64,000 bases of DNA from Dastarcus helophoroides (lineage: Eukaryota; Arthropoda; Insecta; Coleoptera; Bothrideridae): contig CM053328.1 in NCBI GenBank assembly GCA_028583605.1, positions 722,501 through 786,500 on the forward strand. Reading direction: 5' to 3'. Both the position numbers and the translations under genes were made by a program. The stretch's first letter is position 1. Each line of letters begins with the position of its first letter. The notes beneath the pieces are model-generated. The model saw only the letters and a program-made list of their open reading frames with translations, did no database searches and was not told where the DNA came from. Shown here piece by piece: positions 1,803-46,500 of this stretch.

Positions 1803-2184
1803 TTCTGTGCAAAATTTCCATCTTTTTTTCTCGAAATTCGTCGTTTTCAACAACGAAATTTCAACAATATTTGATTATTTCTGGGAATATTCGAATTTTT
1901 ACTAAATATTCACTAAATGTTTCTCATAATTTCGATTTTATTCTTGAAGTTTCGATCTTTCGAAATTTCTTTTTTTTTATAATTCGTTTTCGTTGTTAGA
2001 AATTTCGATTTTTTTCTTCTAAATTCCAAGAAATGTTTCTCAAAATCACTATTTTCGGAATTTCATCTTAACCGCAAAATCCGGTCCTTGATGTTACTGG
2101 AAATATCGACTTTTCCCTAAAAATTTGTCTTCATCTCAAAGATTCTAATGCGCATTAGAGTTTTTGTCTTCCTATTGAAACAGG
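1803..2184. other. AT-rich noncoding DNA
   Basis: T-rich filler with many aatttcga words. No gene, RNA or clear element boundary is seen. Confidence 0.5.
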
Positions 2185-2690
2185 TACAAATAGATTTGAA
2201 CATTTATTAGATTCGAAGTTTGGAAATCAAATACCGGTTTCGATCTTGTTAGATCTCGTCAGTTTGATATATCCAACTGAAATGTTAACAAATGTTCCGA
2301 CAAGTAAGTACTAAAGTATTCACGGACGTCAAGCGTGTGACTTCTCAGTACTACCGCCACCTATTGGCCCATAGAAAAACTATGACCATCGCCAACAATG
2401 TCGTATGTAAGTAGAATGCAACCTAGACTACAAACTCATGCAGCCCTCCAGGCGTGTATAGTGAATCATAGGTAGCTGAACTACCAACAGTTGAAACACT
2501 GCCACCTAACGAAGCGGTTGCTCTCTAGGAGAGTTCCCAGAAGACAAGGATTCTATAATGCACAGACCAATAGGTTTGGCAGTGTTTCAACTGTTGGTAA
2601 TTCAGCTACCTATGATTTACTGTACACGCCGCCTGGAGGGCTGCATGAATTTGTAGTCTAGGTTGCATTCTACTTGCATATTCATCTCAA
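2185..2690. mobile_element. Inverted-repeat element, family B, with hammerhead ribozyme
   Basis: The same blocks recur at 15290-15935, partly inverted, and at 7690-7870. Inside it, about 2405-2510 (tagaatgcaacctagactac, ctgaactaccaacagttgaa) is repeated inverted at about 2578-2685, giving a large foldback. The left part (2185-2400) holds the hammerhead motif. No open frame of useful length is present, so it is a non-autonomous element. By analogy with hammerhead-bearing Penelope-like elements and retrozymes it may be mobilised by a retroelement; that link is inference. Confidence 0.7.
2226..2268 (-). ncRNA. Type I hammerhead ribozyme candidate
   Basis: On the minus strand, 5' to 3': helix I strand ATCAAA (2268-2263); core CTGACGA (2262-2256); helix II GATCT, loop AACA, AGATC, five perfect pairs; core GAAA (2241-2238); minimal palindromic helix III within ACCGGT; cleavage triplet GTA (2234-2232); helix I return strand TTTGAT (2231-2226), pairing perfectly with ATCAAA. 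All invariant hammerhead core residues are present. A second copy at 15813-15855 has ACCAAA/TTTGGT instead, a compensatory change in helix I. Predicted cleavage lies after position 2232. Confidence 0.8.
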
Positions 2691-3435: not shown

Positions 3436-4834
3436 TTTTTTATGAAAATTTTTACCTTCTAGAATCAACGTTTCAATTTTTAACTGTTTTTTGAAAGTTT
3501 AATTTCTCGAAATTTTATATTTACCTCGAAATCCGATATTTGATATTTCTGGAAATGAAATCTTGAAATCTTTTTTTCGAAATTTCCATTCTTTTTCAAA
3601 ATTTATTTTTGGTAATTTAGATTTTTCCTTGAATTCATTTTTTCTCGAAATTTCCATATTTTTTTCGAAATCCGATATTTGATATTTCTAGAAATGAGGA
3701 CATTTTCTTTGAAATTCCTCTGGAGGTATCGAGATTCTTGTCGAAATTCGTCTTTTTTTCGAAATTGCGATTTCCTCAAAATCCGTCTTTTTCTCAATAT
3801 TTCGATTATTTGTTTAAAATTCGTCTTTATCCATAATTGACTACTCTCAAAATTTGACTTTTTTTCAGAATTCGTTTTTCTGTGCAAAAATACCGTCTTT
3901 TTTTCTTAAAATTCGTTGTTTTCGACACAATTCGTCTCTTTGGCACTCAATAGGATTGAAATTCGTTGTTTTCGACACAATTCGTCTCCTTGCCACTCAA
4001 TAGGAATGTTAGAATTTCGATTAATTGTTTTCAAAAGTCGTTCTTTTTTTAATTTCACTAAAATTTGACCTTTTTTTAAAATATTTCGATTTTTTTTCTT
4101 AATTTCGATAATTTTCTTCAAATTTCGAACGTTTTACTCGAAATTTTGTTTTTTTTAAATTCTGTTATTTTTCCTAATATTGGAAATTTTTCTGAAGATT
4201 TAGACTATTTAGAATCTGAATTTCCAAATTTTTTCAAAAATTTCGAGAATCGTCCAATGGTCAGTTTTTTTAAGTTCTAATTTAAACTCAAAATTCACTC
4301 CAAAATCAAGGAAAAAGTCGAAATGAGAACTAAAGTCTAAACTTCGAGAAAAAAAAGTAACAACGTCTAGAAAAATTATAAATTTTGATTTGGACGTCGA
4401 AATTTTAAACAGAAAATTGCAAGTTTAGGTTAGAAATTTTAACAAAAAAGCAAGAATTTTTAAAAAAACCCAAATTTATTTACAAAAACTCAAGAAATGT
4501 TGAGACAAAATTTTAGAGAAATTTGATTTTGAGCTCAATATTTTTATTCTTCAACTGTCAACTGTCATGAGGTGACGTTGTGACGTGTCACGTAGTCATA
4601 TTTCAAAAACTGTTTTAGAATATTGTCAACAAACAATAAAAATTTAAATATTTCCAAACTGGGTCGCAGAAAAGTTAAATAAAATTAATAAACGGTCAAT
4701 ATTTTTATAAATAAAAGTAAAAATGTCAATTTTTTTTTACATAAATTTCGTTTTTATTTGTTTCAAAATTTTCTCAAGAATATGAGAACTCTTTATAAGT
4801 GTTAGGATCAATTAAAATCGAAATTTTAGGTATT
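3436..4834. other. AT-rich noncoding DNA
   Basis: T/A-rich with dispersed aaattcg and tttcga words. A short repeat, cgacacaattcgtctc, occurs at about 3929 and 3973. No gene is seen; the minus-strand open frames here are lysine/arginine-rich translations of low-complexity DNA. Confidence 0.5.
4562..4692. repeat. Dispersed repeat family D copy
   Basis: Contains the blocks aaactgttttagaatattgt and atttccaaactgggtcgcag, which recur at about 22225-22355, 27787-28020, 38483-38690 and 59937-60062 in one or the other orientation. Class unknown. Confidence 0.55.
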
Positions 4835-7012: not shown

Positions 7013-7688
7013 AGGGAGTCCTGTAAAGGAGATACATCGGTAACGTAATTTGTCGAATGAAAATGGGACCGATTTCTACCTACTGACATCAGAGGCCTCT
7101 GTTGTGTATTACCAGTTAGTAACTCTAAAGTGAAAGCTTAAATTGTACCTACTGATGGCCGTGAATGGTGGCAGTCGTAGGTACAATGTATCCAATCGGT
7201 CACATCACTGTTATGTTAATCTTTTCTTGGGCTTTTCCTAGAAAAGCGTGTCTAGAACATCCTTTATTTACCTTTTAGTCAGGGAGGAGCGTTCACCGTT
7301 AAAGTTGAAACAACTTCAATCCATTAGGTGTACCTTTTAACTGCTCATTTCGCGATAAAATAGAATTCTGTGGTGCATGGTTTGCGGATTAATAGATGGC
7401 GTTGCGAACAGTGGAAAGTTTTCAATCCCATTTTAAATGTACGACGTAATGTAACCTTACCTTATAGATAATCATACGCAAATTAAACGTCAAAGTGAAC
7501 CTTGACTGATCAATGAAAACAATCAGTATGTAATCGCTCGCATTTTTCGCTACGTCCTCTTCTGACGAAAAAATCAAATGACTTTTTCATTCAAACACCC
7601 AACAGTTACTATCAGTTAGATGAAATTGGATTGGGATTGAAGCATCTCCCAGACTCCTTCCTCAATTGGCTACGATCAGATTAACCAG
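7013..7688. other. Unique-looking noncoding DNA
   Basis: Less T-rich than its surroundings and without the gaaatttcga words. A short inverted pair around gtacctactgatggccgt and gcagtcgtaggtacaat (about 7145-7185) can form a hairpin. No coding region could be recognised. Confidence 0.4.
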
Positions 7689-7689
7689 T

Positions 7690-7872
7690 GATCGTTTGCA
7701 AATAGAATGCAACCTGGACTCTAGTTATGCAACCCTCTAGGCGCGTGCATAGTGAATTATAGGACAGCTGAACTACCAACAGTTGAAACACAAACACCTA
7801 GCGCAGCGGTTGCTCTCTAGGATGGTCCCAGAAGAGTGCATTAGTGGTCATTTGATCAATATGAAAATGGCA
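7690..7872. mobile_element. Family B fragment
   Basis: Matches the right-hand block of family B: tagaatgcaacctggactct, ctgaactaccaacagttgaa, gcggttgctctctaggatgg, then agaagagtgcattag. The hammerhead-bearing half is missing. The short open frame at 7783 lies within this repeat and is not a gene. Confidence 0.65.
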
Positions 7873-13561: not shown

Positions 13562-14440
13562 TGAACTTAGACTTCGTACAGGAGGTGGAAGAAGAGGTTC
13601 AAGTTCTTCAGGAGGAAGTGCCGACGTCATCCAGCCAACTAACGAGGAGGAAATCCAAAGCGTTCTGCGCAAGCTTAACGTCAAAAAGGCTCCAGGTCCA
13701 GCGGAATTCCAAACCAAGCTCTGAAGAATCTTCCGGACCAAGCTGTCAAATACTTTGGAGCAATAGTCAATTCCATGTTTAAGTACCGGTATTTTCCCAC
13801 AAGATGGAAGTCTGCAGACGTTATCTTTATTCCTAAGCCAGGTAAGGATGGGAAATTTCCCCAAGATTACAGGCCAATTAACCTCTTGTCCAACTTGGGT
13901 AAGGTGGCGGAAAGGATTTTGAGGAAGCGTCTGCAGAATATCATCAGCGATCGCGACACCATTCCAAAGGAACAATTTGGATTCCAACCTATGCACTCTA
14001 CCTCAGACCAGGTGCTGCACAATCACTCAACGCATGAACTGGAACCAGGTAGTTGGAGCTATTTTTTTCGATATCTCCAAGGCATTTGACACAGTTTGGC
14101 ACCAAGGACTAGTCTACAAGATGCATCAGTTTGGTGGCGATGGTTTAAATGGTAAGCTCGTTCCTGGACCAACGCTCATTCAGAGCAAAGGTGGGACAGG
14201 AACTATCTAACCAGAGTAGGCTGCAGTACGGGGTGCCTCAAGGCTCTTGCCTTGTCACCTCTGCTGTATTCTTTGTTCACAGCGGACATCCCGAGAACCA
14301 ATTCAACAATCGACCATACCTTATTGGCAACTTATGCAGACGACACAGCTTTGTGGCGTACTCCTTCAGTCCAGAGATGGTCAATAGACGACTTCAGGAG
14401 ACAGGTCTACTAGATTACGGTCAATGGAGAATTGACATTT
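13562..14440 (+). pseudogene. Jockey-type LINE reverse transcriptase, frameshifted fragment
   Basis: Pieces in shifting frames follow the order of a non-LTR reverse transcriptase. First is EIQSVLRKLNVKKAPGP (about 13645-13700). Then comes a stretch with VIFIPKPGKD and DYRPINLLSNLGKVAERIL (13775-13930), then EQFGFQPMHSTSDQVL. Next are the catalytic block FFDISKAFDTVWH (about 14065-14105), YGVPQGS (about 14227-14247) and TYADDTALW with the YADD box (about 14330-14358). The endonuclease is missing, and several frameshifts plus a stop near 14410 make it inactive. The motif set fits the Jockey/CR1 group. Open frames on the opposite strand are shadows. Confidence 0.85.
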
Positions 14441-15256: not shown

Positions 15257-15527
15257 GATAATTCTTCTAATTTCGACTTTTTTCTAACATTTTCAATTTA
15301 TGCAAGTAGAATACAACCTAGACTACAAAAATTAATGCAACCCTCCAGGCGTAATCATAGGTAGCTGAACTACCAACAGTTGAAACACTGCCACCTGGCA
15401 AAGCAGTTGCTCTCTAGGAAAGTTCCCAGAAGACAAGGATTCTAATGCACAGACCAATAGGTTTAAAAATTTATTAGATTCGAAGTTTGGAAACCAATTT
15501 GTAGTCTAGGTTGCATTCTATTTGCAT

Positions 15528-15687
15528 ACGACATTGTTTGATGGAACGGACTGGTCCTTGGTTATCTTCAAAAATTGAAACACAGAACTTGTCCCCTGAA
15601 ACCAAGAAAAATTAAAAAACACAACAACGGTTGCTCTAACGCGTTTCGACAGCCAAGCTGTGATCTTCAGAGAGAAACGACATTGTT
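15528..15687 (-). mobile_element. Family A, 5'-truncated, 11-bp TSD
   Basis: Element 15539-15676 starts tgatggaacggactggtcct, the complement of the 3' end, and breaks off in cttcagagagaa. It therefore has one arm only. ACGACATTGTT lies on both sides (15528-15538 and 15677-15687). The uninterrupted site is readable at about 2390 as caacaatgtcgtatg in the family B copy there. Truncation at the 5' end inside an intact target duplication is typical of reverse-transcription-primed insertion. Confidence 0.8.
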
Positions 15688-15812
15688 GCCAATGGCCATA
15701 TTTGTTCTATGGACCAATAGGTGGCGGTAGTACTCAGAAGTCACACGCTTGACGTCCGTGAATTCTTTAGTACTTACTTGTCGCAACATGTGTTAGCATT
15801 CGAGTTGGATAT

Positions 15813-15855
15813 ACCAAACTGACGAGATCTAACAAGACAGAAACCGGTATTTGGT
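15813..15855 (+). ncRNA. Hammerhead ribozyme copy, partly decayed helix II
   Basis: ACCAAA (15813-15818), CTGACGA (15819-15825), GATCT-AACA-AGACA (only three of five helix II pairs remain), GAAA (15840-15843), ACCGGT region, site GTA (15847-15849), TTTGGT (15850-15855). Helix I pairs perfectly, and relative to 2226-2268 one base pair changed on both sides (C-G here, T-A there). That supports selection on the fold in the ancestors of these copies. This copy is probably weak or inactive. Confidence 0.7.
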
Positions 15856-16027
15856 TTCCAAACTGCGAATTTAATAAATGTTCAAACCTATTGGTCTGTG
15901 CATTAGAATCCTTTTCAGTTTATTTTGGGTATTTTAAAGAATTCTCCTTTTTAAAATGTCAGATTTAAAATTGAAATTTAATTAACTCTCGAACTCATTT
16001 TATGTCATTTCTTCAAAATTTAATTTC

Positions 16028-16908: not shown

Positions 16909-18613
16909 GTAAAAATAACATTATTATTATTATTTTATCTTATTTTTCCATGCAAACGTAGCGTGTTTGACAGAATAACATGAAAAGTGAAATTAGCACA
17001 GAATAGTAAATTAGAAATTGACATTTTTGAGACGTTTCCTGTTTCAGTTGATTAATTAGGCCGGCCGCATACATACGGAATTCAGATCAGGTTTCCGAGT
17101 CAAAAATTCAAATTTAGAATCAGTCAACGTTGGCACGCGCATATTTCTGCAGTTTTACAGAAATGTATTCAATTTTCAGTGCTCGAATATCAATTCCTGA
17201 TTCGGAAATCGAACCGGCGACTGAATTCTAAGACCGTACACGTACGCAATCCTGGTTCAGTTCCCGAATCAGGATTCCGCATGTGTGCGGTATTTTCCCA
17301 CAAGGTGGAAGTCTGCAAACGTTATCTTCATTCCTAAGCCAGATAAGGATGCGAAATTTTCCCAAAATTACAAGCAAATCAGCCTCTTGTTTAACTTGGG
17401 TAAGGTGGTGGAAAGGATTTTGGGGAAGCGTCTGCAGAATATCATCAGCGAACGCGACATCATTCAAAAGGAACAATTTGGGTTCCAATCTATGCACTCT
17501 ATCTCAGACCAGCTGCTGATGGTGGTTAAAACAATCACTCAACGCATGAACTGGAACCAGGTAGGAGCTAGGAGCTATTTTCTTCGATATCTCCAAGAAA
17601 TAGAAATGTATTCAATGTTCAGCGCTCGTATCTCAATTCCTGATTCGGAAATCGAACCGGCGACTGAATTCTAAGACCGTACACGTACGCAATCCTGATT
17701 CAGCTCCCGAATCAGGATTCCGTATGTGTGCGGCCTTAGAATTCAGTCGCCGGCCGCACACCAACAGATTCCTGACGTTTCATAGGAGTGCATTCATTTC
17801 AGCGCTCGAATCTGAATTGCTGCTTCGAAAACCTAATCGGGATTCCGTACGTATCATCTAATATTCATTAATGTTTAAATTCCTTCAAAGATTTATAAAC
17901 CGCCTAATAGCATCTCATAATTATAACCATAATTCATACAAATTAGCTTAAAAACTAATTTCTATTTATGTTTAGGTGTTGCGGATGCTGAAAATGCGTC
18001 TGCCATACTTTACCCGGAAAATATATATTTCGAAAATATTGCCCGAGACAAAGGAGTTGGTGTTTTGAGGTACAGAATGCCGAAAATTCGTATGGAAGAG
18101 AGCGCATCCGAGCCTTCTTCGAGTATGAGTTCCAGTGAAATCAGAAGGTTGGCCTTCACCAAAAGCAGCAAGCTAACCCAAGATATAGATTTCGAAAAAT
18201 CAGAATGGTACAGCAACTACGTTAATTTTAAAAAACAACAGCAAATAATCATGTACAAGGTTAGAAAACATGGGTTTACTGCATTGACACCAGAAGAAAT
18301 GAACTGGTACGATAAGTATATGGAATTTAAGAATCGGTATGAAAAATTTATGGATAAGAGGAAGACGCCGATATCGGATAGTGTCGATTATTCTCTTCTT
18401 AAGACTTTCCATGCTGATGAGTATCTGTTGTCGAAACCAACGAAGGTGGTTTATCCCACAAAATCCTCTTCGTCCAGTTCAGCAGACGATGGGGACGATC
18501 TTGAAAAATGCATATGCGCTGATAATGAGGACGTTTGGGCACATAAGTCGGCAGATAGCAAGTCTTCCATATCAAACAAGGCAAAATCCACCACAACAAA
18601 TAAATCCCCGTAA
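16494..18613 (+). CDS. MORN-repeat protein (two exons, 350 aa)
   Basis: Exons 16494-16908 and 17976-18613, with donor G|GTAAAA and acceptor TTTAG|GT, keep one frame and give 350 aa. Residues 35-125 hold MORN-type units: NGDKYVGDF (34-42), GFGVYYTKDGQSYSGEW (54-70), YADGTEYEGYL (85-95) and a weaker last unit. MORN repeats usually mediate membrane or protein contacts, often in flagellar or cortical proteins. The second exon encodes a basic, partly helical region (WYSNYVNF, WYDKYMEFKNRYEKFMDKRK) and a Ser-rich tail. The start is the first ATG after the hAT MITE that leads into MPPKSN. The orthologue could not be named. The intron contains a LINE fragment and a direct repeat. Confidence 0.75.
17160..17745 (+). 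repeat. LINE fragment flanked by ~135-bp direct repeats
   Basis: About 17160-17290 and 17600-17735 are near-identical (aatcgaaccggcgactgaat, ctaagaccgtacacgtacgc, atcaggattccg). Between them lies a reverse-transcriptase piece starting tattttcccacaagg. The right repeat is followed by an inverted piece (ccttagaattcagtcgccgg). All of this is in the MORN intron. Confidence 0.7.
17289..17593 (+). pseudogene. Reverse-transcriptase fragment, second copy
   Basis: Homologous to 13790-14080: RYFPTRWKSANVIFIPKP, LFNLGKVVERILGKRLQNI, EQFGFQSMHSISDQLL, then ITQRMNWNQVGA. It lacks the catalytic aspartate blocks and is a dead fragment. The sequence begins at the same point of the element (tattttcccacaag) as a recognisable block in the larger copy. 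Confidence 0.75.
17976..18613 (+). CDS. MORN gene exon 2
   Basis: Starts after ctatttatgtttag and joins in frame (G split by the intron, then VADAENASAILYPENIYFE). Ends at TAA. The open frame runs continuously from the acceptor, upstream of any ATG, as expected for an internal or last exon. Confidence 0.7.
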
Positions 18614-23196: not shown

Positions 23197-26100
23197 GTAA
23201 GCGTTTCCGTTTTCCCTTTCCCATTTAATATCAACATATTGTCCGAGTTGTTGAATTATTTAAATTATTTTTTCGATTTCAAAATCAATTATAACAACTT
23301 GATAAATTTTATTTAACCTGTTCGGCTTCTTTCTGTTATTGTTTTTAAAATACTTAAATAAAAACATACAATACATAATGATGAAGCAAAGGGTTTAAGT
23401 TTAAAATACACCCATTTTACAGGTTGATAAGCTAGTCAGCCGAGTTAGCACTTCCACCCTTCTAGAAGATAGAAGGGATGCATGCAGAGCTCTCAAATCC
23501 CTGTCAAAAAAATACAGATTAGAGGTCGGAGCTCAAGGAATGGATGTACTGAGACAAGTATTGGAATTGGATAGAGCAGATCCTGAAATTGTGGGTTATT
23601 GTTTGGACACTTTGTGCAACATAACGTCAACGGAAGTATTTGAAGAGGAAAACGATAACCCACATAGTGAGAATATTGGGGAACAATTTACGGAAATGTT
23701 CATTAAAAACCCGGAAAATGTTACGCTAGTATTAAGTTTCTTAGAAGAATACGATTTTAAAGTGAGGTGGCCTGCAGTTAAATTATTAACATCACTTTTA
23801 GCAAATAAGCCTAAAGATATTCAAGATATAGTTTTAGTAAGCCCAATGGGCGTTTCCAAGCTTATGGATTTATTGGTAGAAAGTAGAGAAGTAATAAGAA
23901 ACGATGCGTTACTTTTGCTTATAAATTTGACAAAATCGAATGCCAATATTCAAAAAATAGTCGCTTTCGAGAATGCTTTTGATAAGTTATTTGAGGTCGT
24001 CAAGGAAGAAGGTTGGACTGATGGCGGTATAGTTGTCGAAGATTGTCTTATTTTGATGCTAAATTTATTGAAAAATAACACGAGCAATATTAATTTCTTC
24101 AAAGAAGGTTCGTATGTTCAGAAAATATCACCCATGCTGGTACTTCCGCCAAACATTGAAGAAGTGGGATGGAGTGCACAGAAGGTTTCAAATATGCATT
24201 GTGTCCTGCAGTTAATTAGGACTTTGGTGTCTCCAAACAATCCAGTACAGATTATAACATCCTGCCAAAAAACTATGAGAAATGCTGGTTTATTAGAAGC
24301 ACTTTGCAACATACTGATGGCAAGTGGAGTTCCAGCTGGTAAGTAATTTGGGTAATCGCTGAAGAAAATGACTAAGATCGTTTTTTTTTTGCGGGCAACT
24401 AAAATTATTAGCTAGGAATTGGGAAATATGTTTTCTGATATTCTCTGTATCTTCTTTGCGAAGTAGTGTTATTTTTATTGATGTTTTATTGGCTTTTTCT
24501 TTGCTCCTTCCACAATTCTCGATTTTCAGTAACCTCCTGTTAAGAATTGGCAATCTCTTATAGATTAACTCAAGCAGCGATTGGCACAGATCCAATGCTT
24601 AACACAAAATTACTGAATATCTAGAATTGTGGAAGGAGTAACTGGCGAAGAAAGAGCCAATAAAACATGAATGAAAATACGTTTTTTGTTGTCTCAGGAA
24701 GATTATCTATGGCACCAACATTGCTTGGGCTGGTACTGGTCGTAGTAAAACTTAAAAATATCATTTGCTGCTAAATTCAAATTAATTAACATATCATAAA
24801 TATTCTTAAAATACGTTGATGCATCATTTAAAAGCATTTTACTTCAGCATGAATGATTTAAAAATTAAAATAGAAATCTTGTCCCCTGAAACCAAGAAAG
24901 ATTTAAAAACGCAACAAAGGTTGCTCTAATGCGTTTCGATAGCCAAAGCTATCATCTTCAGAGAGATATTCAGGGGACAAGACTTGTATTTCAATTTTTG
25001 AAGATAACCAAAGACCACCAAATTCAGTGATTTATTTATAATTTGTTTTTAAAACTAGTTCATCTTCATTTCTCTTTTTTAGGAATTTTGACTGAAACGA
25101 TAAACACCGTAGGTGAAGTAATAAGAGGAAATTTAACAAACCAAGAGTATTTTGCTAATGTAATGGCGCCATCTAACCCACCTCGACCCGCAATCGTTGT
25201 CCTGTTAATGTCGATGGTCAATGAAAAACAACCATTCTCTCTACGATGTTCCGTCTTATACTGCTTCGAATGTTTCCTATTTAAAAACGAAATTGGACAA
25301 GAACAAGTAGTCCAGACACTTCTCCCGAGCACCACCGGTGGTTCGGATTTAACCACGGGACAATTATTATGCGGAGGCCTTTTCAGTATCGATTGCTTAA
25401 GCAACTGGTTCTCGGCAGTCGCGCTCTATCACACCCTTTTAGAAAATCCAGCGCAAAAAGAACAGTTACTGCGGGTGCTCTTAGCGGCTAATTTAGGCTC
25501 CCAACCCGTCAGTTTGCTTCATCAATGTGCCACGTTCCTGCAACACACTCCCAAACTTCAAGCGAAAATCGGCATGCTGATGCTATTATCGGTGTGGTTG
25601 TCGCACTGCCCCCAAGCCGTTCAAACTTTCCTCAACGTACCCGGCGCGATGGCGTTTCTCACGGCTCAGACTTCGGCCAGCGAATTCGACAATAACGAGG
25701 AACTGCTTCAAGGGCTTTGCGCTTTCGTCATGGGCCTTTGCGTCGCTTTTAACGACAATTCGGTTCCGAATTACTCTAAAGAAAATTTGAGTCAGTTGAT
25801 TGAAAAAAGAGTCGGCATTGAAACCTACTGTAAAAAACTTGGCGAGATCACCAGGCATGAGGTGTATTCGAAAGCGGCGAAAGAACCGCAGATAAAAGCC
25901 AAACATTCCAGCGAATTGTTGCTCGAATTTGAGTTCTGTAAACTTTTTAAGGTGTTAGAGGGTGTTATCATCAACGCCCTCGGTGTTCAGCGGGATCTGT
26001 CGAATGGATTTTCCGAAATGAGTCTGAGCGAACATGAAAATGCGCTTTTGGTGCAGTACAAGGATGTTATAAGGGACCAGGATAAGAAATTGCAAGACTT

Positions 26101-27099
26101 ACAGAAGAATTTTAACCATTTACTGAGGGAGAACCAACAATTCAAGGTAAAATTAAAGAATAATGCTTAAGACATTACAGATTCGTTATGAATAATTATT
26201 CTTATAACCAATTGTGTCAGTAGTTTATAAGCATTGAGGAAAATGATGGCACCTAAGGTTTTCTTGTGATGATTAGTACTAGGAGTAGTTGTTAGCATTC
26301 ATATTTTTACAATTTATAGCTGTTTCTTGTTTGGAGGGGTGTACCCACTTCTAAATGCTTGGGCCAGTTTCAGATCCCAGTTCGTGCATGTTGTGTGTCT
26401 AGATCATGAAAGCAACCTACTATTTCATGTTTCAGATTAATTATGCCTCTGCGTTTAAGGATCATTCAATCAGGATTTCACTCTTTTTTTTTTTGATGGT
26501 ATAGATCAGGCATGTGCAACAGGTTACCATCAGGACGTCGCAACCCCTCTGTGGTCTGCATAACATTTCTCAGAGCTGCCCCCAACATTGTACAGTTAAA
26601 TTGACGTCGTTTTTTTTAGTTAACACTTTTTTCTATCCTAAGACTTTACTGTTTAGTCCACAGTCCTAACTATGCATGTCTGATATGTATAATAAATGTC
26701 TTGTTTTTTATGTAGGAAACGATAGAAGAGTTGCAGCAGACAAACCTTCAATTGCAAGACCAAACTACATTATTAAAAGTGCAGCTATCGACAGGAACAC
26801 ATTCCACCATGACAAATGGCCAAATCAAAGAAGATTCCGATGAAATAATTGATCTTAAACAAAATATTAACCAAGAGGATGGAAACCATATGCTGAAAGA
26901 TGAAATTGTGAAATTGAAACAATTACTTGAAGAGAAAGATGATGAATTGAGCAAATTCAAAAAAGACCAAGACAATTTGCTCAATTTATTATTATATCAA
27001 GAGCAAAAAGTGAGTAGTTTTAAAACTCGATTACGAGAACTGGGCGAGAACATTGAAGATTCCAATTCAGACAATTCAGGCTCTGAAAATGAATCGTGA
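23119..27099 (+). CDS. USO1: General vesicular transport factor p115 (USO1), 4 exons, 813 aa
   Basis: Exons 23119-23196, 23423-24338, 25083-26146 and 26716-27099 join in one frame with GT/AG borders. p115 is a peripheral Golgi protein that tethers COPI/COPII vesicles, acting with Rab1, GM130/giantin and SNAREs. Residues 1 to ~640 form the armadillo-like head (DRRDACRALKSLSKKYRLEV, DPEIVGYCLDTLCNI, LRCSVLYCFECFLFKNE, LLLEFEFCKLFKVLEGVI). About 645-795 is coiled coil (YKDVIRDQDKKLQDLQKNF, MLKDEIVKLKQLLEEKDDEL). The C terminus is acidic (EDSNSDNSGSENES), as in other p115 proteins. The length is close to fly p115 and shorter than the human protein. Intron 2 has two transposon insertions. Confidence 0.95.
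23423..24338 (+). CDS. USO1: USO1 exon 2
   Basis: Acceptor ttttacag, donor G|GTAAGT. Codes residues 27-331, the first half of the armadillo-like head. The coding frame starts well before the first internal ATG (23540). Confidence 0.93.
24411..24700. mobile_element. Foldback repeat family E in USO1 intron 2
   Basis: ctttgcgaagtagtgttatt, ttttattggctttttctttg and ccacaattctcgattttcag occur on the left. They return inverted on the right as atctagaattgtggaaggag and gcgaagaaagagccaataaa. Related copies are at 29313-29605 and 48375-48525; the hairpin at 40367-40651 shares the ggcgaa/ctttgc words. Confidence 0.6.
24866..25022 (+). mobile_element. Family A copy in USO1 intron 2
   Basis: From about ttaaaatagaaatcttgtcc (24872) to gaagataaccaaagaccacc. 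The second arm is reduced: it jumps from the loop to caggggacaag. The stem reads GATAGC-TTTG-GCTATC. It ends about 60 bp before the exon 3 acceptor. Confidence 0.65.
25083..26146 (+). CDS. USO1: USO1 exon 3
   Basis: Acceptor ctcttttttag, donor AAG|GTAAAA. Codes residues 332-686, completing the head and entering the coiled coil. Markedly more GC-rich than the rest of the gene in its middle. Confidence 0.93.
26147..26715. other. USO1: USO1 intron 3
   Basis: Unique sequence between GTAAAA and tgtag. No repeat family recognised. Confidence 0.6.
26716..27099 (+). CDS. USO1: USO1 exon 4
   Basis: Acceptor ttttttatgtag; codes residues 687-813: coiled coil and acidic tail, ending TGA. Confidence 0.92.
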   Translation, partial: ETIEELQQTNLQLQDQTTLLKVQLSTGTHSTMTNGQIKEDSDEIIDLKQNINQEDGNHMLKDEIVKLKQLLEEKDDELSKFKKDQDNLLNLLLYQEQKVSSFKTRLRELGENIEDSNSDNSGSENES

Positions 27100-37500: not shown

Positions 37501-40500
37501 GAAATACAAATCAAGGACAAGGTTAGTATTTCAATTTTTGAAAAAAGCATGATTATTTTGATGACAAACTTTGTTAAAGCGCCCTAGTTCAACTTTTTGT
37601 TTATGTGGGTTAGAATAGTTCACCACCAAAGCGACGATTTATAAAAGTAAAAGAAAACAAAATAAGAATAATACAGTAAAAGGTCAGCTTCATGCGGGGG
37701 AGGGGCAGAGGCATGCGCCCTATTATGCATCAAAACAGATGTGTAGCTTGGGGGAGGAGTATCGGGAGGGTAAAACGACCCTTGGCTCCTTTGGAGAGTG
37801 CGCGCCGCAACTGTTTGACTGCCTTGACCGTGGGGCACATATGCATCCGTCTCATTAACTTGATGATAATCTTTCCTGTAAAAAAATATATTTATTACTA
37901 AATTGTTTATATTTAGAACCACTTAAATTTAAAAAAAACACACACACATACACATACTTCTTTCTGATGTAAATCCAGGTGTGAGAATCGACCCAAACGA
38001 GTACAGTGAGCAAAAACCCGGCCAAAACTGCAGAACCCAGCATCATGGCCAAGCCGAGCAGCCCGACGTTACACAACGCCTTGGCACCTCTAACGTAATG
38101 TGTGTGTAACGTTCTGCAATCCACCAAAGCTGTTAAAGTGGTCACCGGCATGTCGGCGAAATTGATTTCGTTTTTCAACGAACTAAATTTTGTGTCGAGG
38201 CTGCGTTTCGGGAAGAGATACATGGCCGGTTGTTTCAGCGAGTTCAGATTGGACCTTACGTTGTCCAAGGTGGCTTTGGCTTCTCGCAAACGTTGCGTGA
38301 ACGGGTTGGCGCGCCCCCTTTCGCAACTCGTGTAGTAACGGAGGATTTCTCTCGAGAGTTCCGAGTTTACTTGTTTTTCGAGGAATTTCTCCGGGGCTGT
38401 ACATAAATCACCTGCAAAAAACATTGCTCACATGAATACCTCTTCAACGTCGGATTTTGAAGTTTTAATCTTTCTCGAAAATTTAACTCAAAACTAATAC
38501 TCTTCATGGTAGACCCTTATTGACCGGAAATATTATGTTTTTTTCAATTTATTTAACATTTCTTCGGCCCAGTTTGGAAATATTTATTTTATTGTTTTTA
38601 TGGTTTGTTGACAATTTTCTAAACAATTTTTGAAGTGCGACTACGTGATATTTAAATTTAAATATCACGTAGTTAAAAGTTCAAAAAAAAGATAAAATTC
38701 AAAAAAATTTTAAAAAAAGAATTTTGATAGAAAAACGAAAATTTTTTGAAAAAAATCCTGCCGGCTGAATATACATTTTCTCTTCACTGTATCGACTGAG
38801 GAGGGCGACAGGTATGTAATGTACCTACCCACTTGGGTCCAGATCTTTTTGGCTACCGAAGTTTTTACATCTGTTTCATTTAAATTACTTATTGCTATTG
38901 AGTGTAGGACGTTTCTGCCACTTGTAAAATGTAACTAAAGAATAGGCGGAAAATCCGTCGCAAAAAAAGATCAGGGTGTAACATACAGATAAGGAAAATT
39001 TTTCGTTGTCTATGTAAAACGCTAAGAATTGTCCCTTCCATAGTTTTCTACGGCCACTGAACGTATTTCCCTACTTTGACGCAGCATGCTCGTGTCTTCC
39101 AGTTTAAATGTTAGAAAAAACTCGTTGAGAGTTTTCAACAGACTGGAATATTGTTTAGCACAGTCCGGCGGCCTATTTAAACTCCTTATATTGTAATATT
39201 TAAAGAGTTATTATGTTACATTCTTCATTAGAGTTATTATTTATTTTGTTTAGGAAATTTCGTTTATTTATTTTGGTTATCAAAAGAATATTAGTTTTAT
39301 TTTGGTTATCAAAGAATATTAGTTTTATGTTGCCCCAAACGTTGATTAAAACAATGGACTAAAAGAACAAGCAGCATGTGGTACCCAAATTGTTGCCTGC
39401 CAGTAGTAATCCCGTTACAAAACACGTTAGAAGCTACGATGTAATACTGAAATCTCCACCAGCACTGATCGCTGCGCTCTGCGTTGAATTGTTTACACCG
39501 GTGTAGGAGAATACAAGGCGCCGCCCATCTGTCCCACTATTAGCTCTCAATGTTAAATCTCTTATTAACATTCTCCCTATGAACAGTGTTTGACTTTCCT
39601 GATGTGTATATGTATTGTACTTAAAATAGTCAGTCTAGTCAAACCTTTGTTAGAAGCAAGTTTATTATAACCATATTTTAAAACTATTAATATATTACAA
39701 TACACAAAATCAATCTCTTTAATTCTACAAAATTATTCCATATCTACTATATTTACTAAATCACGTCCGAGGTATCTACGACCGAAAATCCATTACATAA
39801 CCCATCTTTTTTTTCTTCAAGTTTTTACGTTCCAGAGAAGCTTTCATTACGAAGAGAAGAAAATTTTCGTAACTTTTTGAATACACTTTATCTCCGTTTT
39901 GTTATTAAGGTGCCCTCGAGTGGTCAATATTACTCACCTAACGCTACACTAGACGCGATATAGATACTAGCCATCATATAAGACGCGATAATGGCCAGCA
40001 GCCCACATACGGAAAACGCGATCAACGCGCACCTATTGTGCCTGGCCACACCGACAAGTAGCACGACGCAGAGTACCAACAAAACGCTGAGTACCGCCAT
40101 GGTAAAGGGCCACCGAATCTGTTCGATCTTCTCGCCCAAATTGATGGGTTTGGAGAGATCTAACCAAAGGAGAGGTTGGCGGATGCTGGCGACCGCTTCG
40201 GCGGCGTCCGTGTTGTTATTCATCGCTTGCTGGAGGAAGACCTTTGCTTGTTTGTAAAGAGTCATGTTGGAAACGGGCTCGTCGAAAATATCGTGAATGG
40301 CCACCAGTTGGGAGTTGACGGAAAATCTGTAAAATTATGCAACATGAGACATTCGAGTTACTTCTTGAAAGTAATCTTCCTCACCTCATATCGGATTTGT
40401 TAATTTATTATTTGCACAACAGTAACTAAAATATTCTCTGCATGATCTTTGCAAAATTTCCTTAATTCCATTCATATTGAGTGGCATTTTCTTTGCATTA

Positions 40501-43500
40501 TTTTATTGGAAGACGCAACTGGCGAACAAAATGCCACTCAATAGGAATGGAATTAAGGAAATTTCGCAAAGACCATACAGAGAATATTTTGATTACTGTT
40601 GTGCAAATAATAAATTAACAAATCCTATATGAGGAAAGGAAGATAACTTTCGGGCTCTTTCAATTTTCATGAAATGAAGCATCTCGACAGATTAATCTTA
40701 TACTATGTTTAGCAATTTAACTGCCTAAACACCAACGATCGTTTTATCAAACGACTGTAAGAACTGTGGCATATGAAACAAGCCTCATGGCTGTGTTCAA
40801 CCATTAGATTTTCTATTACGAAACTTCAATCACAATGACGTAGGATCAAAGTGCTTAATATTAACTGTTTTTTTAAGCATAAGCAACCTCTTTATGAAAA
40901 GAAAAACACTACTAAAAGCTGCAAGTATGTGTTCACATATAAGGCGCTTTGTGCAAAAGCAGCCCAAGTGAATCCATGGATATACACTGAAAGTACTGCT
41001 GCCATCTGTTAAGTAGTAAAAGTATTGTTACGGGCTTTATCGGTTCGAATTGATTAACTCGTGAATTGAATAATACCCACTTTATTACCAAACTTAACTC
41101 TGAACACTACAACTGAATAATTAACTCACTTACTGACTTCCAACTCACTAACTACACTGGCTTCTGACTGATTCGGGGGAAAGCTGACCGCCTTATATAG
41201 TTTTGGCCCCCAGGTTCTAGAAGTTTTTGGCAAATAAGGCTTATCGTTTGCCGAAATTTCTGGAACAATTATCTGCCGTTTGCTTCGTTATCGCGGCCGC
41301 TTTCCCCTTATCAGATCCTTCTAGAAACTTTTCTTATGTACTAAATTCTACAATTTACATTTCGTTACAGTATTGAACCTGAGTTTGTCTTATACCATAA
41401 ACGCTTGCACTCACACGAGGCTTTAAATACCTGGACGCATTCCAAAAGTTTATTGGTTACAATCCATCACGTGATCTGCTGAATTTCTATAGGCTGAATG
41501 GATGTCATAAAAGCGCGGGTTTCTTAAGACCCGTATACCTTCACCTTAGGGATGTTGATTTCTTTTTAGAATAATCGATTTTTGGATCGATTCGAATCCT
41601 GAGCAAAAGTATCGATTCCCGATAAAATTGGGTGCTGAAAGATCGATTTCCGATTAATTGCCTTGTGGGTGAAATTTTTAGACATTTCTAATTAAAAAAA
41701 ATTGAATGATAATGACGAATAGGCGTAGTTTAATTTTGAAAGTTTTTTCTTAGATTTTAAACACTAATATTTATATTTTAATTATTTATTCCTAATTAGA
41801 AAAATCCGATACATATTTGTTTTCTGCTTTGTTTTTTATTTATGCATTTTTGTTTTTTTTTACAAAGATGTAGAAGGGGCATTCATTTATTAAAATATAT
41901 TTAGAAATATGAAGTTTAAACTGGAAATTACGAGACTAAAGTGGAAATCTCTACTTTATTCTCTAAATTTCGACTTTTTTTAAGGAAATTTCATAAATAA
42001 AGTCGAAATGTCGGCTTTAATCTGGAAACCAACTTTTTTTCACGAAATTTCGAGATAAGTCGAAATTTCTTATTCTATGGTTAGGTTAGGCAGCAGTAGA
42101 GTTAAGCCCCACCAACCCTTAGAATATAAGGCTTTATTATAAGCACCAACCCTTTTACAATTTAATATTGACACCACTAGGGTACGTTTAGTTCGACTTT
42201 TTTCTTGACATTTCAAGGTTAAAGTAGAATTTTGGAGAAAAGTCGAAATTTCGAGTTCAAAGTCGACATTTTACAAAAGCGTAGAAAGGCATTGATTAAA
42301 AAATATTATATTTAGAAATTTCAACATTTTACAAAAGCGTAAAAAGGACATTGATTTAAAAAAAATATTATTAAAGATTTCGACTTTTTTCTCGAAATTT
42401 CGACTTTAATCTTGAAATTTCGGATTTAAATTCGAAATTTCGGCTTTAAGCTCGAAATTTCGTCTTTATACTCAAAATTTCGACCTTTTTCTCGAAAATT
42501 CGGCTTTTTTCTTGAAATTTCTACTTTTTTCCTAAAATTTTGAGATTAATGTCGAAATTTCGACTTTAATCTTGGATTTTCGACTTTGATATCGAATTTT
42601 TTCTCGAAATTTCTCTATGGTTAAATTAGGCAGATGACAGTTACGTCCCACCATTCCTCTTTCCCAATCTTGACAGTTGGTAGTAGGGTGCGTTCAATAA
42701 TTGCTATTTTTAATCAGCAAATTTTGGTATTTTTTTTAGAAATTTCAAGATTAATTTAATTGAAATTTCGAAGAAAAAAGTCGAAATTTCGAGTTTTAAA
42801 TCGAAATTCCGTGATTAAGATCAAAATTTCGAGAAAAAAGTCGGAATTTGAGAAAAAAGTCGAAATTTCGAAAAAAAGAATCGAAATTTGAGAAAAACTT
42901 AAGTCGCAATTCCAAGAAAAAAAATGTCGAAATTTGAGAAAAAGGTTGAAATTTGTAGATAATTCAGTTTAGTCGAAATTTCGAGAAAAATGTCAAAATT
43001 TCGATATTAAGGTCAAAATTTCGAGAAAAAAAATCGGTATTTGAGAAAAAGGTCGAAAATTGAGAAAAAGAAAACGAAATTTCGAGAAAAAAGACGAACT
43101 TTTCAGATTAAGGTCGAAATTTCGAGAAAAAAGTCAACATTTGAGAGAGACGTCGAAATTTCGAGAAAAAAGTCGAAATTTGATAAAAAAAAATCGAGAT
43201 TTCGAAGAAAGTCGAAACTTCGAAAAAAAAAGTCGAAATTTCGAAAAAAAAAAGTCGAAACTTTCACTTTAAAGTCGAAATTTCCAGAAAAATGTCGAAA
43301 TTTCGATATTAAGGTCAAAATTTCGAGAAAAAAAATCCGTATTTGAAAAAAAGGTTGAAAATTGAGAAGAAGAAAACGAAATTTCGAGAAAAAAGACGAA
43401 CTTTTCAGATTAAGGTCGAAACTTCGAGAAAAAAGTCAACATTTGAGAGAAACGTCGAAATTTCGAGAAAAAAGTCGAAATTTGATAAAAAAAATCGAGA

Positions 43501-46500
43501 TTTCGAAGAAAGTCGAAACTTCGAAAAAAAAGTCGAAATTTCGAAAAAAAAAAGTCGAAACTTTCACTTTAAAGTCGAAATTTCCAGAAAAATGTCGAAA
43601 TTTCGATATTAAGGTCAAAATTTCGAGAAAAAAAATCCGTATTTGAAAAAAAGGTTGAAAATTGAGAAGAAGAAAACGAAATTTCGAGAAAAAAGACGAA
43701 CTTTTCAGATTAAGGTCGAAACTTCGAGAAAAAAGTCAACATTTGAGAGAAACGTCGAAATTTCGAGAAAAAAGTCGAAATTTGATAAAAAAAATCGAGA
43801 TTTCGAAGAAAGTCGAAACTTCGAAAAAAAAAGTCGAAATTTCGAAAAAAAAAAGTCGAAACTTTCACTTTAAAGTCGAAATTTCCAGAAAAATGTCGAA
43901 ATTTCGATATTAAGGTCAAAATTTCGAGAAAAAAAATCGGTATTTGAGAAAAAGGTCGAAAATTGAGAAAAAGAAAACGAAATTTCGAGAAAAAAGACGA
44001 ACTTTTCAGATTAAGGTCGAAATTTCGAGAAAAAAGTCAACATTTGAGAGAGACGTCGAAATTTCGAGAAAAAAGTCGAAATTTGATAAAAAAATCGAGA
44101 TTTCGAAGAAAGTCGAAACTTCGAAAAAAAAAGTCGAAATTTCGAAAAAAAAAAGTCGAAACTTTCACTTTAAAGTCGAAATTTCCAGAAAAATGTCGAA
44201 ATTTCGATATTAAGGTCAAAATTTCAAGAAAGAAGTAGAAATTGGAGAAAAAAATACAAAATTTCGCGAAAAAGGTCGAAATTTGAAGAAAAAGGACGAA
44301 ATTTTGAGAGAAAAAAGTCGAAATTTGAAAAAAAGTCAAAATTTCGAGAAAAAAGTCGAAATTTCGAGCCTGAAATAAAAATTTGAAAAAAAAGTCGAAA
44401 TTTCTAAAAATAACATTTTTTTTTAAATCGATGTCCTTCCTATGCCTTTGTAACATGTCGAAAAAGTTGAAATTTGAAGAAAAAAGTCGAAAATTAAGAA
44501 AAAAGTCGAGATTTTGAGAAAAAACTCGAAATTTTGAATTTAAAGTCGAAATTTCGAAAAAAAATGTCGAAATTTCGATATTAAGGGCAAAATGTCGAGA
44601 AAAGTCTAAATTTGAGAAAAACGTCAACATTTCGAGAAAAAAGTCGAAATTTCTAAAAATAACATTTTTTTTTAATCGATGTCCTTTCTATGCCTTTGTA
44701 ACATTTCGAAAAAGTTGAAATTTGAAGAAAAAAGTCGAAAATTAGAAAAAAAAAGTCGAGATTTTGAGAAAAAAACTCGAAATTTTGAATTTAAAGTCGA
44801 AATTTCGAAAAAAAAATTCGAAATTTCGATATCAAGGGCAAAATTTCGAGAAAAAAAGTCGAAATTTGAGAAAAACGTCAAAATTTCGAGACAAAAGTCG
44901 GAATTTTGAAATATTTCGAGAAAAAAGTCGGAATTTGAGAAAAAGAGTCGAGATTTCTAGAAAAAAGTCGAAATTTCGATAAAAAAAAGTCGAAATTTCA
45001 AGAAAAAAATCGAAATTTGCTAGAAAAGTCGAAAGTTTGAGTTTAAAGTCAAAATTTTGAGAAAATTATCAAAATGTTAATATTAAGGTCAAAATTTCAA
45101 GAAAAAAGTTAAAATTTGAGAAAAAAAACGAAATTTCGAGAAGGTCGAAATTTCGAGAAAAAATCGAAATTTGAGAAAAAATTTAAAATTTCGAGAAAAA
45201 AGTCGAAATTTCGAGAAAAAGTCGAAATTTCGAGAAAAAGTCAAAATTTTGAGAAATAAAGGTCGAAATTTTGAGAAATAAAAGGTACGAAATTTCGAGA
45301 AAAAAGGTCAAAATTTCGAGAAAAAAGTCGAAATTTCGAGCTTAAAACCGAAATTTCGAGAATAAAAGTCGAAATTTCTAAAAATTAACGTTTTTTTTAA
45401 TCGATGTCATTTCTGCGCCTTTGTAACATTTCGAAAAAGTTAGTCAAAAGTCAAAATTTCCAGAAAAAAGTCGAAATTTAAGAAAAAATTGGAAAAGTTG
45501 AGAAAAAAAGTCGAAATTTTGGGTTTAAAGTCGAAATTTAGAGAAAAATGTTGAAATTTCGATATTAAGGTCAAAATTTCGAGAAATAAGTCAAAATTTC
45601 AGGAAAACGTCGAAATTTTGAGAAAAAATTCGAGATTTCGAGAAAAAGTCGAAATTTCAAAAAAAAAAAGTCGAAATTTCGAGAAAAAAATCGAAATTTG
45701 CGAGAAAAGTCGAAATTTCGAGAAAAAAATTGAAATTTTGAGCTGAAAGTCGAAATTTCGAAAAAAATGTCCAAATGTCGATATTAAGGTCAAAATTTCA
45801 AGAAAAAAGTCGAAATTTGAGAGAAAAAAAACGAAATTTCGAGAAAAAGGTCGACATTTGGAGAAAAAAATCTAAATTTGAGAAAAAAGTCGAAATTTCG
45901 AGAAAAAAAGTCGACATTTCGAGGTTAAAATCGAAATTTAAGAAAAAAAGTCGAAATTTCTAAAAATAAAATTTATTTTTTAAATCGATTTTCTTTCTAC
46001 GCCTTTGTAACATTTCGAAAAAGTTCAAATTTTCAGAAAAAAGTCGAAATTTCCAGAAAAAAAATCGAAATTTAGAGAAAAATGTCGAAATTTCGATATT
46101 AAGGTCAAAATTTCGAGAAATAAGTAAAAATTTCAGGAAAACGTCGAAATTATGAGAAAAATTCGAAATTTGAGAAGAAAGTTGAGATTTCGAGAAAAAA
46201 GTCGAAATTTCAAGAAAAAAAAGTAGAAATTTCGAGAAAAAAATCGAGATTTGCGAGAAGTCGAAATTTCGAGAAAAAATCGAGATTTGCGAGAAGTCGA
46301 AATTTCGAGAAAAGTCGAAATTTGAGAAAAGTCAAAACTTGAAATACAAGTTTGAGAAATAAAATCGAAGTTTCTAAATATAACATTTTTTTAATCAATG
46401 TCCTTTCTACGTCTTTGTAACATTTCGTTCAATTTCGATTTAAAAATTGAAATTTTTATTTTTTTCTAGAAATTTCGACTTTTTTTTCGAAATTTCGGAA

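Follow-up and report, generated by a model that had tools for sequence, protein, structure and literature searches.

A probable non-LTR retrozyme of the beetle Dastarcus helophoroides with insertions that resemble those of Penelope-like elements

According to PMC7229834, the non-LTR retrozymes of metazoans are non-coding elements that carry type I hammerhead ribozymes in tandem units of a few hundred base pairs, are low in GC, lack LTRs, are flanked by target site duplications (TSDs) of more than 4 bp and are dispersed in many copies. The discussion of that paper leaves open which enzyme moves animal retrozymes and puts Penelope elements forward as a strong candidate, on the grounds that type I hammerheads, tandem occurrence and co-existence are common to both. 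Endonuclease-containing Penelope-like elements (PLEs) are described in PMC3846280 and PMC11167929 as having head-to-head arms, a short TSD and 3' ends that alternate between forms, one end of the insertion bearing a tail; minimal type I hammerheads have been reported in PLEs (PMC7761336). In PMC3846280, the inverted joints are attributed to self-priming on an antisense template, and no cross-mobilisation was found between two rotifer PLE types. The in vitro work of PMC11167929 reports that both target strands are cut and extended, that internal RT starts account for the tail, that the Anolis Penelope enzyme has no RT start difference between strands, and that ribozyme mutants left insertion unaffected, i.e. 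ribozyme cutting is not needed.

The beetle element described here was recognized in a 64-kb stretch of the genome (C4:722501-786500, hereafter the window). It resembles the metazoan retrozymes in all the features listed above. The beetle copies also have arms that are regularly head to head and two sites of 3' ends; neither trait is described in PMC7229834, and the words 'inverted' and 'head-to-head' have 0 occurrences in its main text. The beetle unit shares with PLEs the arm layout, the short TSD, the alternative 3' ends and the hammerhead. It differs from these PLEs in being non-coding and in having end sites approximately 148 nt apart, as against 30-40 nt in PLEs.

A hammerhead motif and its copies

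The minus strand at 2268-2226 of the window (copy 1) reads ATCAAA-CTGACGA-GATCT-AACA-AGATC-GAA-ACCGGT-A-TTTGAT, and the core letters CUGANGA...GAA, A15.1-U16.1 and H17 are present in copy 1 and in 55 of the 71 copies aligned (Table 1). The hammerhead that an earlier note on this DNA had placed here is borne out by this reading, by a structural descriptor and by a covariance model. The descriptor matched copy 1 and one other site in the window, and with helix I of at least 5, helix II of at least 4 and a short loop it had 0 matches in 200 first-order Markov sequences; a looser hammerhead descriptor gave a mean of 0.145 matches in such sequences. The best covariance match was to Rfam Hammerhead_HH9 (RF02275), over the full model, at 2280-2209 with 37.7 bits and an E value of 6e-6, which is below the gathering score of 52; the five loop III positions of that model are absent from the beetle hammerhead. 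HH9 matches in loci L146, L147 and L150 range from 26.6 to 36.8 bits (34.4-36.8 in the better copies), all below 52, and at gathering thresholds Rfam models reported nothing anywhere in the 64-kb window. The genome-wide covariance search that the earlier note proposed returned at least one Hammerhead_1 match among the 73 candidates scored of 91,202, but at 32.6 bits it lies under the cut-off of 34. Matches to Rfam miRNA models were all under their own cut-offs, and those inspected as alignments were long inverted repeats. We conclude that copy 1 is a real hammerhead ribozyme motif, for which cleavage is predicted. In a longer form of the motif, an outer stem I is separated from helix I by an internal loop (ATAT/TT), and 94.1% of cells in the alignment of copies are paired. 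In natural hammerheads, loops of this kind make stem I-stem II contacts.

When 37 bases of copy 1 were used as a query, copy 2 was recovered with 2 mismatches (0.00 expected), so that the two copies are related. Copy 2 had been said to keep the whole core; the core letters are indeed kept, but helix II (GAUCU/AGACA) has lost both core-proximal pairs, and copy 2 scores 23.5 bits against HH9 (E 0.21). In total, 71 complete ribozyme regions were aligned, taken from the window, the 200 kb around it, one locus on contig C12 and 39 genome-wide loci, after 18 incomplete regions among 89 matches had been excluded; the 39 loci are those most similar to copy 1 and thus non-random, and the unselected portion amounts to 264 kb. 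The claim of a covarying, compensated helix I did not survive this comparison. The pair in question is CG in 54 copies, CA in 9, TG in 6 and TA in 1, with one copy gapped; the single TA is window copy 1, and independent changes would be expected to produce about one such pair. When the 19 pairs were scored together on 65 distinct rows, 335 of 500 shuffles reached the covariation score, and helices I and II, although 93-94.5% of their cells are paired across copies, covary no more than shuffled columns. Covariation as evidence for the hammerhead is therefore ruled out, and of the argument that an intact core with a compensated pair lies beyond chance, only the part concerning the motif itself is retained.

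The comparison of copies for random substitution gave a divided answer. Core positions show 14 substitutions in 760 cells against 64 in 1415 for the flanks, i.e. 2.5 times less variation (p 0.001), whereas the helices vary as much as the flanks (122 in 2679; p 1.0), and core and helices are both intact in 34 of the 71 copies. These data indicate that the core is under constraint; at 91% mean column identity, constraint on the helices is unmeasurable. A dead or coincidental motif, carried by a real repeat to which hammerhead activity is irrelevant, would agree with the variable helices, the missing covariation, the minority of fully intact copies and the scarcity of 5' ends at the cut site (see below). 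It is nonetheless improbable in view of the conserved core and of a second genomic hammerhead family with direct copies 456 bp apart, and neutral decay after insertion would mask any constraint on the helices.

Because ACCGGU contains no loop nucleotides, three helix III pairs are impossible within one molecule. Read from its letters, copy 1 has no cis helix III with a loop: a single molecule is limited to the A-U pair capped by CCGG, whereas two molecules can form a 6-bp helix. By nearest-neighbour energies, the best fold of the monomer is inactive (-14.9 kcal/mol, compared with -8.1 for the active-like fold), and a two-strand form sharing helices I and III reaches -22.2, compared with -16.2 for two active-like monomers. 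Dimer formation thus favours the active fold, but the energies alone do not select it: without constraints, the dimer optimum falls to -34.9. A dimeric cleavage mode is known for amphibian retrozymes. In the axolotl and newt hammerheads (HHR_Amex1, satellite 2), helix III likewise consists of one A-U pair and a palindromic tetraloop, for which the beetle has CCGG; the beetle hammerhead differs in its insect host, its sequence and its unit. The helix III of invertebrate retrozymes is said to be stable in PMC7229834, in contrast to the weak, dimer-type helix of the beetle. A helix of this type in an insect makes it possible to test whether cleavage as a dimer is confined to the retrozymes of amphibians.

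Table 1. Positions of hammerhead and retrozyme features in the window
Feature	Position	Strand	Basis or remark
Hammerhead copy 1	2226..2268	-	Letters, Rfam HH9 match, structural descriptor
Copy 1 helix I	2268-2263/2231-2226	-	
Copy 1 CTGACGA	2262-2256	-	
Copy 1 helix II, 5 bp	2255-2251/2246-2242	-	Loop II AACA
Copy 1 GAA	2241-2239	-	
Copy 1 helix III ACCGGT	2238-2233	-	Self-complementary, loopless
Copy 1 A17	2232	-	Predicted cut after 2232
Copy 1 hammerhead with outer stem I	2218..2277	-	GTTGG 2277-2273 / CCAAAC 2223-2218
Retrozyme insertion 1	2141..2680	-	Unit mapping; outer limits from TSD
Insertion 1 minus-strand arm	2186-2578	-	Unit 203-592
Insertion 1 plus-strand arm	2577-2680	+	Unit 275-378; head to head with minus arm
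Insertion 1 TSD, 11 bp	2130-2140 left, 2681-2691 right		TTCATCTCAAA
Unit fragment	7692..7835	-	Unit 235-381, without hammerhead
Retrozyme insertion 2	15300..15911	+	Unit mapping; interrupted by younger repeat
Insertion 2 minus arm	15299-15497	-	Unit 171-378
Insertion 2 plus arm	15496-15538, 15677-15916	+	Unit 346-388 and 1-236
Insertion 2 near-TSD	15290-15299 / 15912-15921		TTTTCAATTT / TTTTCAGTTT, 9/10 identical
Nested unrelated repeat, 138 bp	15539..15676		In insertion 2; ACGACATTGTT duplicated at 15528 and 15677 (11 bp)
Hammerhead copy 2	15813..15855	+	Core letters kept; two inner helix II pairs lost
Second, unrelated hammerhead	56050-56090	+	Not reported by Rfam in window
Second-family unit pieces	54715-55042, 56035-56165		

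The 377-bp unit and the anatomy of its insertions

The unit, mapped on the natural copy C4:881019-881395, is 377 bp in length and circularly permuted, with 40.8% GC and a longest stop-free stretch of 66 codons; the RNA of one natural unit has a fold z of -5.63, and 0 of 100 shuffles were as low. Of 87 runs, 39 extend past the unit ends by at least 20 nt on both sides and 28 are longer than one unit, to a maximum of 2.79 units (L156), the repeats being arranged head to tail. Several loci, L156 among them, contain two or three ribozymes. The unit length thus falls within the 150-450 bp of the direct tandem units, with a hammerhead in each, by which retrozymes are recognized; the run maps indicate no LTRs, and young copies have TSDs of more than 4 bp. 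By the features tested, the element is a non-LTR retrozyme. The copies are non-coding and inverted, as the earlier note had described them, the inversions consisting of adjoining opposite arms in 26 cases; its proposal of an undescribed non-autonomous class is mostly wrong, since tandem 377-bp non-coding units with such TSDs are those of the animal non-LTR retrozymes already described.

A DNA search of the genome (538,885,228 bases in 50 contigs) with the unit gave 3,039 first-look candidates, of which 40 were scored, so that counts are lower bounds; among the matches listed, the scored places lie on contigs C1-C10, C12 and C13. In the unselected 264 kb the unit occurs at 12 loci, of which 9 include the ribozyme region and 4 extend across the unit ends. 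Three palindromic copies were seen at the C12 locus (L122, approximately 7486-7866 and 3808-4168), where three arms are without some letters of the CTGACG core and one arm has ACTAGT, also self-complementary, for ACCGGT.

All 26 cases of adjoining opposite-strand arms are head to head and 0 are tail to tail. The 3' ends of arms, which would be the starts of RT, fall near unit 230 (GCATTAGAATC) in 40 of 79 cases, near 380 (CTTGCAT and up to 18 nt beyond) in 32 and elsewhere in 7; a manual tally of the unselected 264 kb gave 9, 11 and 1, respectively (n = 21). Both ends were resolved in 21 of the 26 head-to-head insertions (4 run off the fetched edge, and 1 ends elsewhere), and 19 of these 21 have one end of each class; among 200,000 label shuffles, 49 did as well. 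Window copy 2 is one of the two exceptions, its direct arm being split by the 138-bp repeat; reading across this repeat raises the figure to 20 of 21. The other is L169, with both ends near 380. L174, identical in structure to L173, and the second of two like palindromes at L122 were left out of the end, pairing and joint counts but are included in the run counts, and ends within 5 nt of a fetched edge were excluded from the end and pairing counts.

Of the 26 head-to-head insertions, 10 lie between perfect repeats of 11-14 bp, 6 others have duplications of 7-9 bp, for which chance is possible, and 10 have none. Window copy 1 is among these last 10; its 11-bp TSD emerged after the outermost ends had been traced by eye. 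Copies of the unit thus combine head-to-head arms, a short TSD and different 3' ends at the two sides. Two segments of the window, 2404-2680 and 15300-15529, resemble terminal-inverted-repeat elements, as would be expected of a MITE-like DNA transposon that includes the hammerhead by coincidence; that origin is hardly credible given that TSD length varies from 11 to 14 bp, that direct multimers occur within insertions, that inverted arms differ in length and joint, and that the left and right ends map to distinct positions in a single unit. For 2404-2680, the MITE reading was rejected on unit mapping.

The 5' ends of arms show no enrichment at the cleavage site: 4 of 82 lie no more than 3 nt from it, compared with an expectation of 1.5. 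They are spread over the unit, and the densest stretch, near 345, holds 12 of 82, equal to the maximum of 300 uniform simulations. Window position 15497 and C4:703725-703978 were suggestive of 5' ends as a record of cutting, an idea that was dropped for lack of enrichment. The cleavage site is read through in 63 runs, a pattern that circular or uncut templates would give.

The 138-bp repeat nested in insertion 2 is abundant, with approximately 10 further places in the window, often as back-to-back inverted pairs (e.g. 51804-52054). It is flanked by an 11-bp duplication in copy 2, and this family may use the retrozyme insertion machinery.

Mode of insertion and candidate helpers

Profiles of GIY-YIG matched at least 91 places in the genome at E<=0.001 (150 scored of 1,070 candidates). 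Four of the 91 were fetched, at 6 kb each, and proved to be 5'-truncated Penelope copies, 95-98% alike, with frames for RVT_1 and GIY-YIG in L182 and for GIY-YIG only in L184. Their 3' ends exist in short and long forms approximately 36 nt apart, and in L184 an inverted arm with the long 3' end adjoins a direct arm with the short one. The four loci have no sequence in common with the unit and no hammerhead by the descriptor. The unit itself encodes no RT and GIY-YIG frame, such frames being located elsewhere in the genome, and a loose motif screen of the 264 kb found none Penelope-like among RT/GIY-YIG frames of at least 90 codons.

The element is most likely processed by dimeric hammerheads and inserted in the Penelope fashion; stated in full, it is probably a beetle non-LTR retrozyme inserted by a Penelope-like enzyme that primes on both target strands. 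Tandem genomic copies of the 377-nt non-coding unit would be transcribed, two ribozymes would pair via the self-complementary ACCGGU, their cleavage would release monomers from the transcript, and the monomers would be closed into circles. A Penelope-like protein would then cut both target strands and prime RT from each, the two starts lying near unit 229 and near 377 of a template that is circular or multimeric, and the two cDNAs would meet head to head. In our judgement, two primed strands account for the one-of-each rule better than self-priming does, since the latter would give no second, different far-end start. Several observations run against this explanation, namely the lack of enrichment of 5' ends at the cleavage site and the 63 runs that read through it, the absence of covariation, HH9 and Hammerhead_1 scores below their cut-offs, the inactive best fold of the monomer and the lower energy of the unconstrained dimer, the lack of unit sequence and of a hammerhead in the four Penelope loci, the in vitro results with the Anolis enzyme on strand starts and ribozyme mutants, the absence of cross-mobilisation between the rotifer PLE types, the 16 of 26 head-to-head insertions that have no exact duplication of at least 11 bp, and the breach of the one-of-each rule in L169.

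The main rival holds that the unit is the pLTR of an autonomous, hammerhead-bearing PLE from an unseen Penelope family and that the copies are solo or partial pLTRs, for which circular RNA would be unnecessary. Penelope elements share with the unit their head-to-head arms, their two 3' ends, their TSDs and, according to PMC7761336, minimal type I hammerheads, and GIY-YIG matches abound in this genome. We nevertheless consider this origin rather unlikely, in that the unit sequence is absent from the Penelope loci fetched (4 of the 91 matches), direct repeats reach 2.79 units with no coding sequence between them, and the 264 kb that hold 12 unit loci contain no Penelope-like frame by the loose screen. 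A different helper for the retrozyme could be sought among elements of the type represented at 13679-14089 and 17225-17674 of the window, which are reverse transcriptase remnants (RVT_1, E 1.8e-10 and 3e-7) of what appear to be non-LTR retrotransposons.

What is novel here is the insertion record, not the ribozyme. Head-to-head solo pLTRs may be described in the work of Cervera 2014 and Lunse 2017 on Penelope hammerheads. Among the matches listed in a literature search of PMC (titles and abstract openings), no beetle retrozyme and no head-to-head retrozyme insertions were present, and in PMC2220036 the word 'hammerhead' was found only in the reference list. Within a single genome, the retrozyme copies show the structural hallmarks of insertion by Penelope, which bears on the question of which enzyme moves retrozymes. 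Insertion of animal retrozymes in general by Penelope-type double-ended TPRT, from two sites on the RNA circle and nearly always one per strand, is put forward tentatively, at slightly less than an even chance. If so, every insertion would preserve a pair of RT starts from an RNA circle that the enzyme can go round more than twice, and the helper complex would, by the one-of-each rule, engage the RNA in two distinct registers, one for each strand. Since the ends define two putative RT starts, the helper question becomes testable with one RNA, one protein and one target.

A second hammerhead family and neighbouring features

The second hammerhead of the window reads CCATA-CTGATGA-GGCC-AAGGAA-GGCC-GAA-AGTAGT-C-TATGG, with an outer stem CAACC/GGTTG. 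At least 40 places at 95-100% are listed among 668 candidates for this family, and the copies examined comprise 3 of the 40 (L186, L187), the window copy and one in L157. In L186, the two direct copies have helix III A-CUAG-U and HH9 scores of 26.5 and 28.8 bits. To judge from these sequences, the second family appears to be retrozyme-like.

The stretch that splits the second-family unit of the window includes an apparent miniature head-to-head Penelope insertion (55724-55812), which by eye has a short 3' end on one side and a long one on the other and is flanked by an 11-bp TSD, ATTTATAGAAT, at 55713 and 55813. Inspection by eye also located ATTGGTC approximately 12-13 nt before the 3' insertion end in both retrozyme families (unit 214-221, i.e. 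window 15885-15895, and the 3' ends of L186 and L187) and CTTTGGAC at the short 3' end of the Penelope copies. ATTGGTC and CTTTGGAC could represent a common recognition motif or could be alike by chance.

Elsewhere in the window, long arrays at 42750-46340 consist of approximately 20-bp and 300-bp AT-rich repeats built on GAAATTTCGA. Two host genes, which served to place the host among the beetles, were identified by Pfam, i.e. Uso1/p115 at 23405-27099 (+) and Tweety at 37855-40334 (-), and the Uso1 exon has its best named relatives in Aromia moschata (80%) and Holotrichia oblita (77%), with Popillia japonica (71%) further down.
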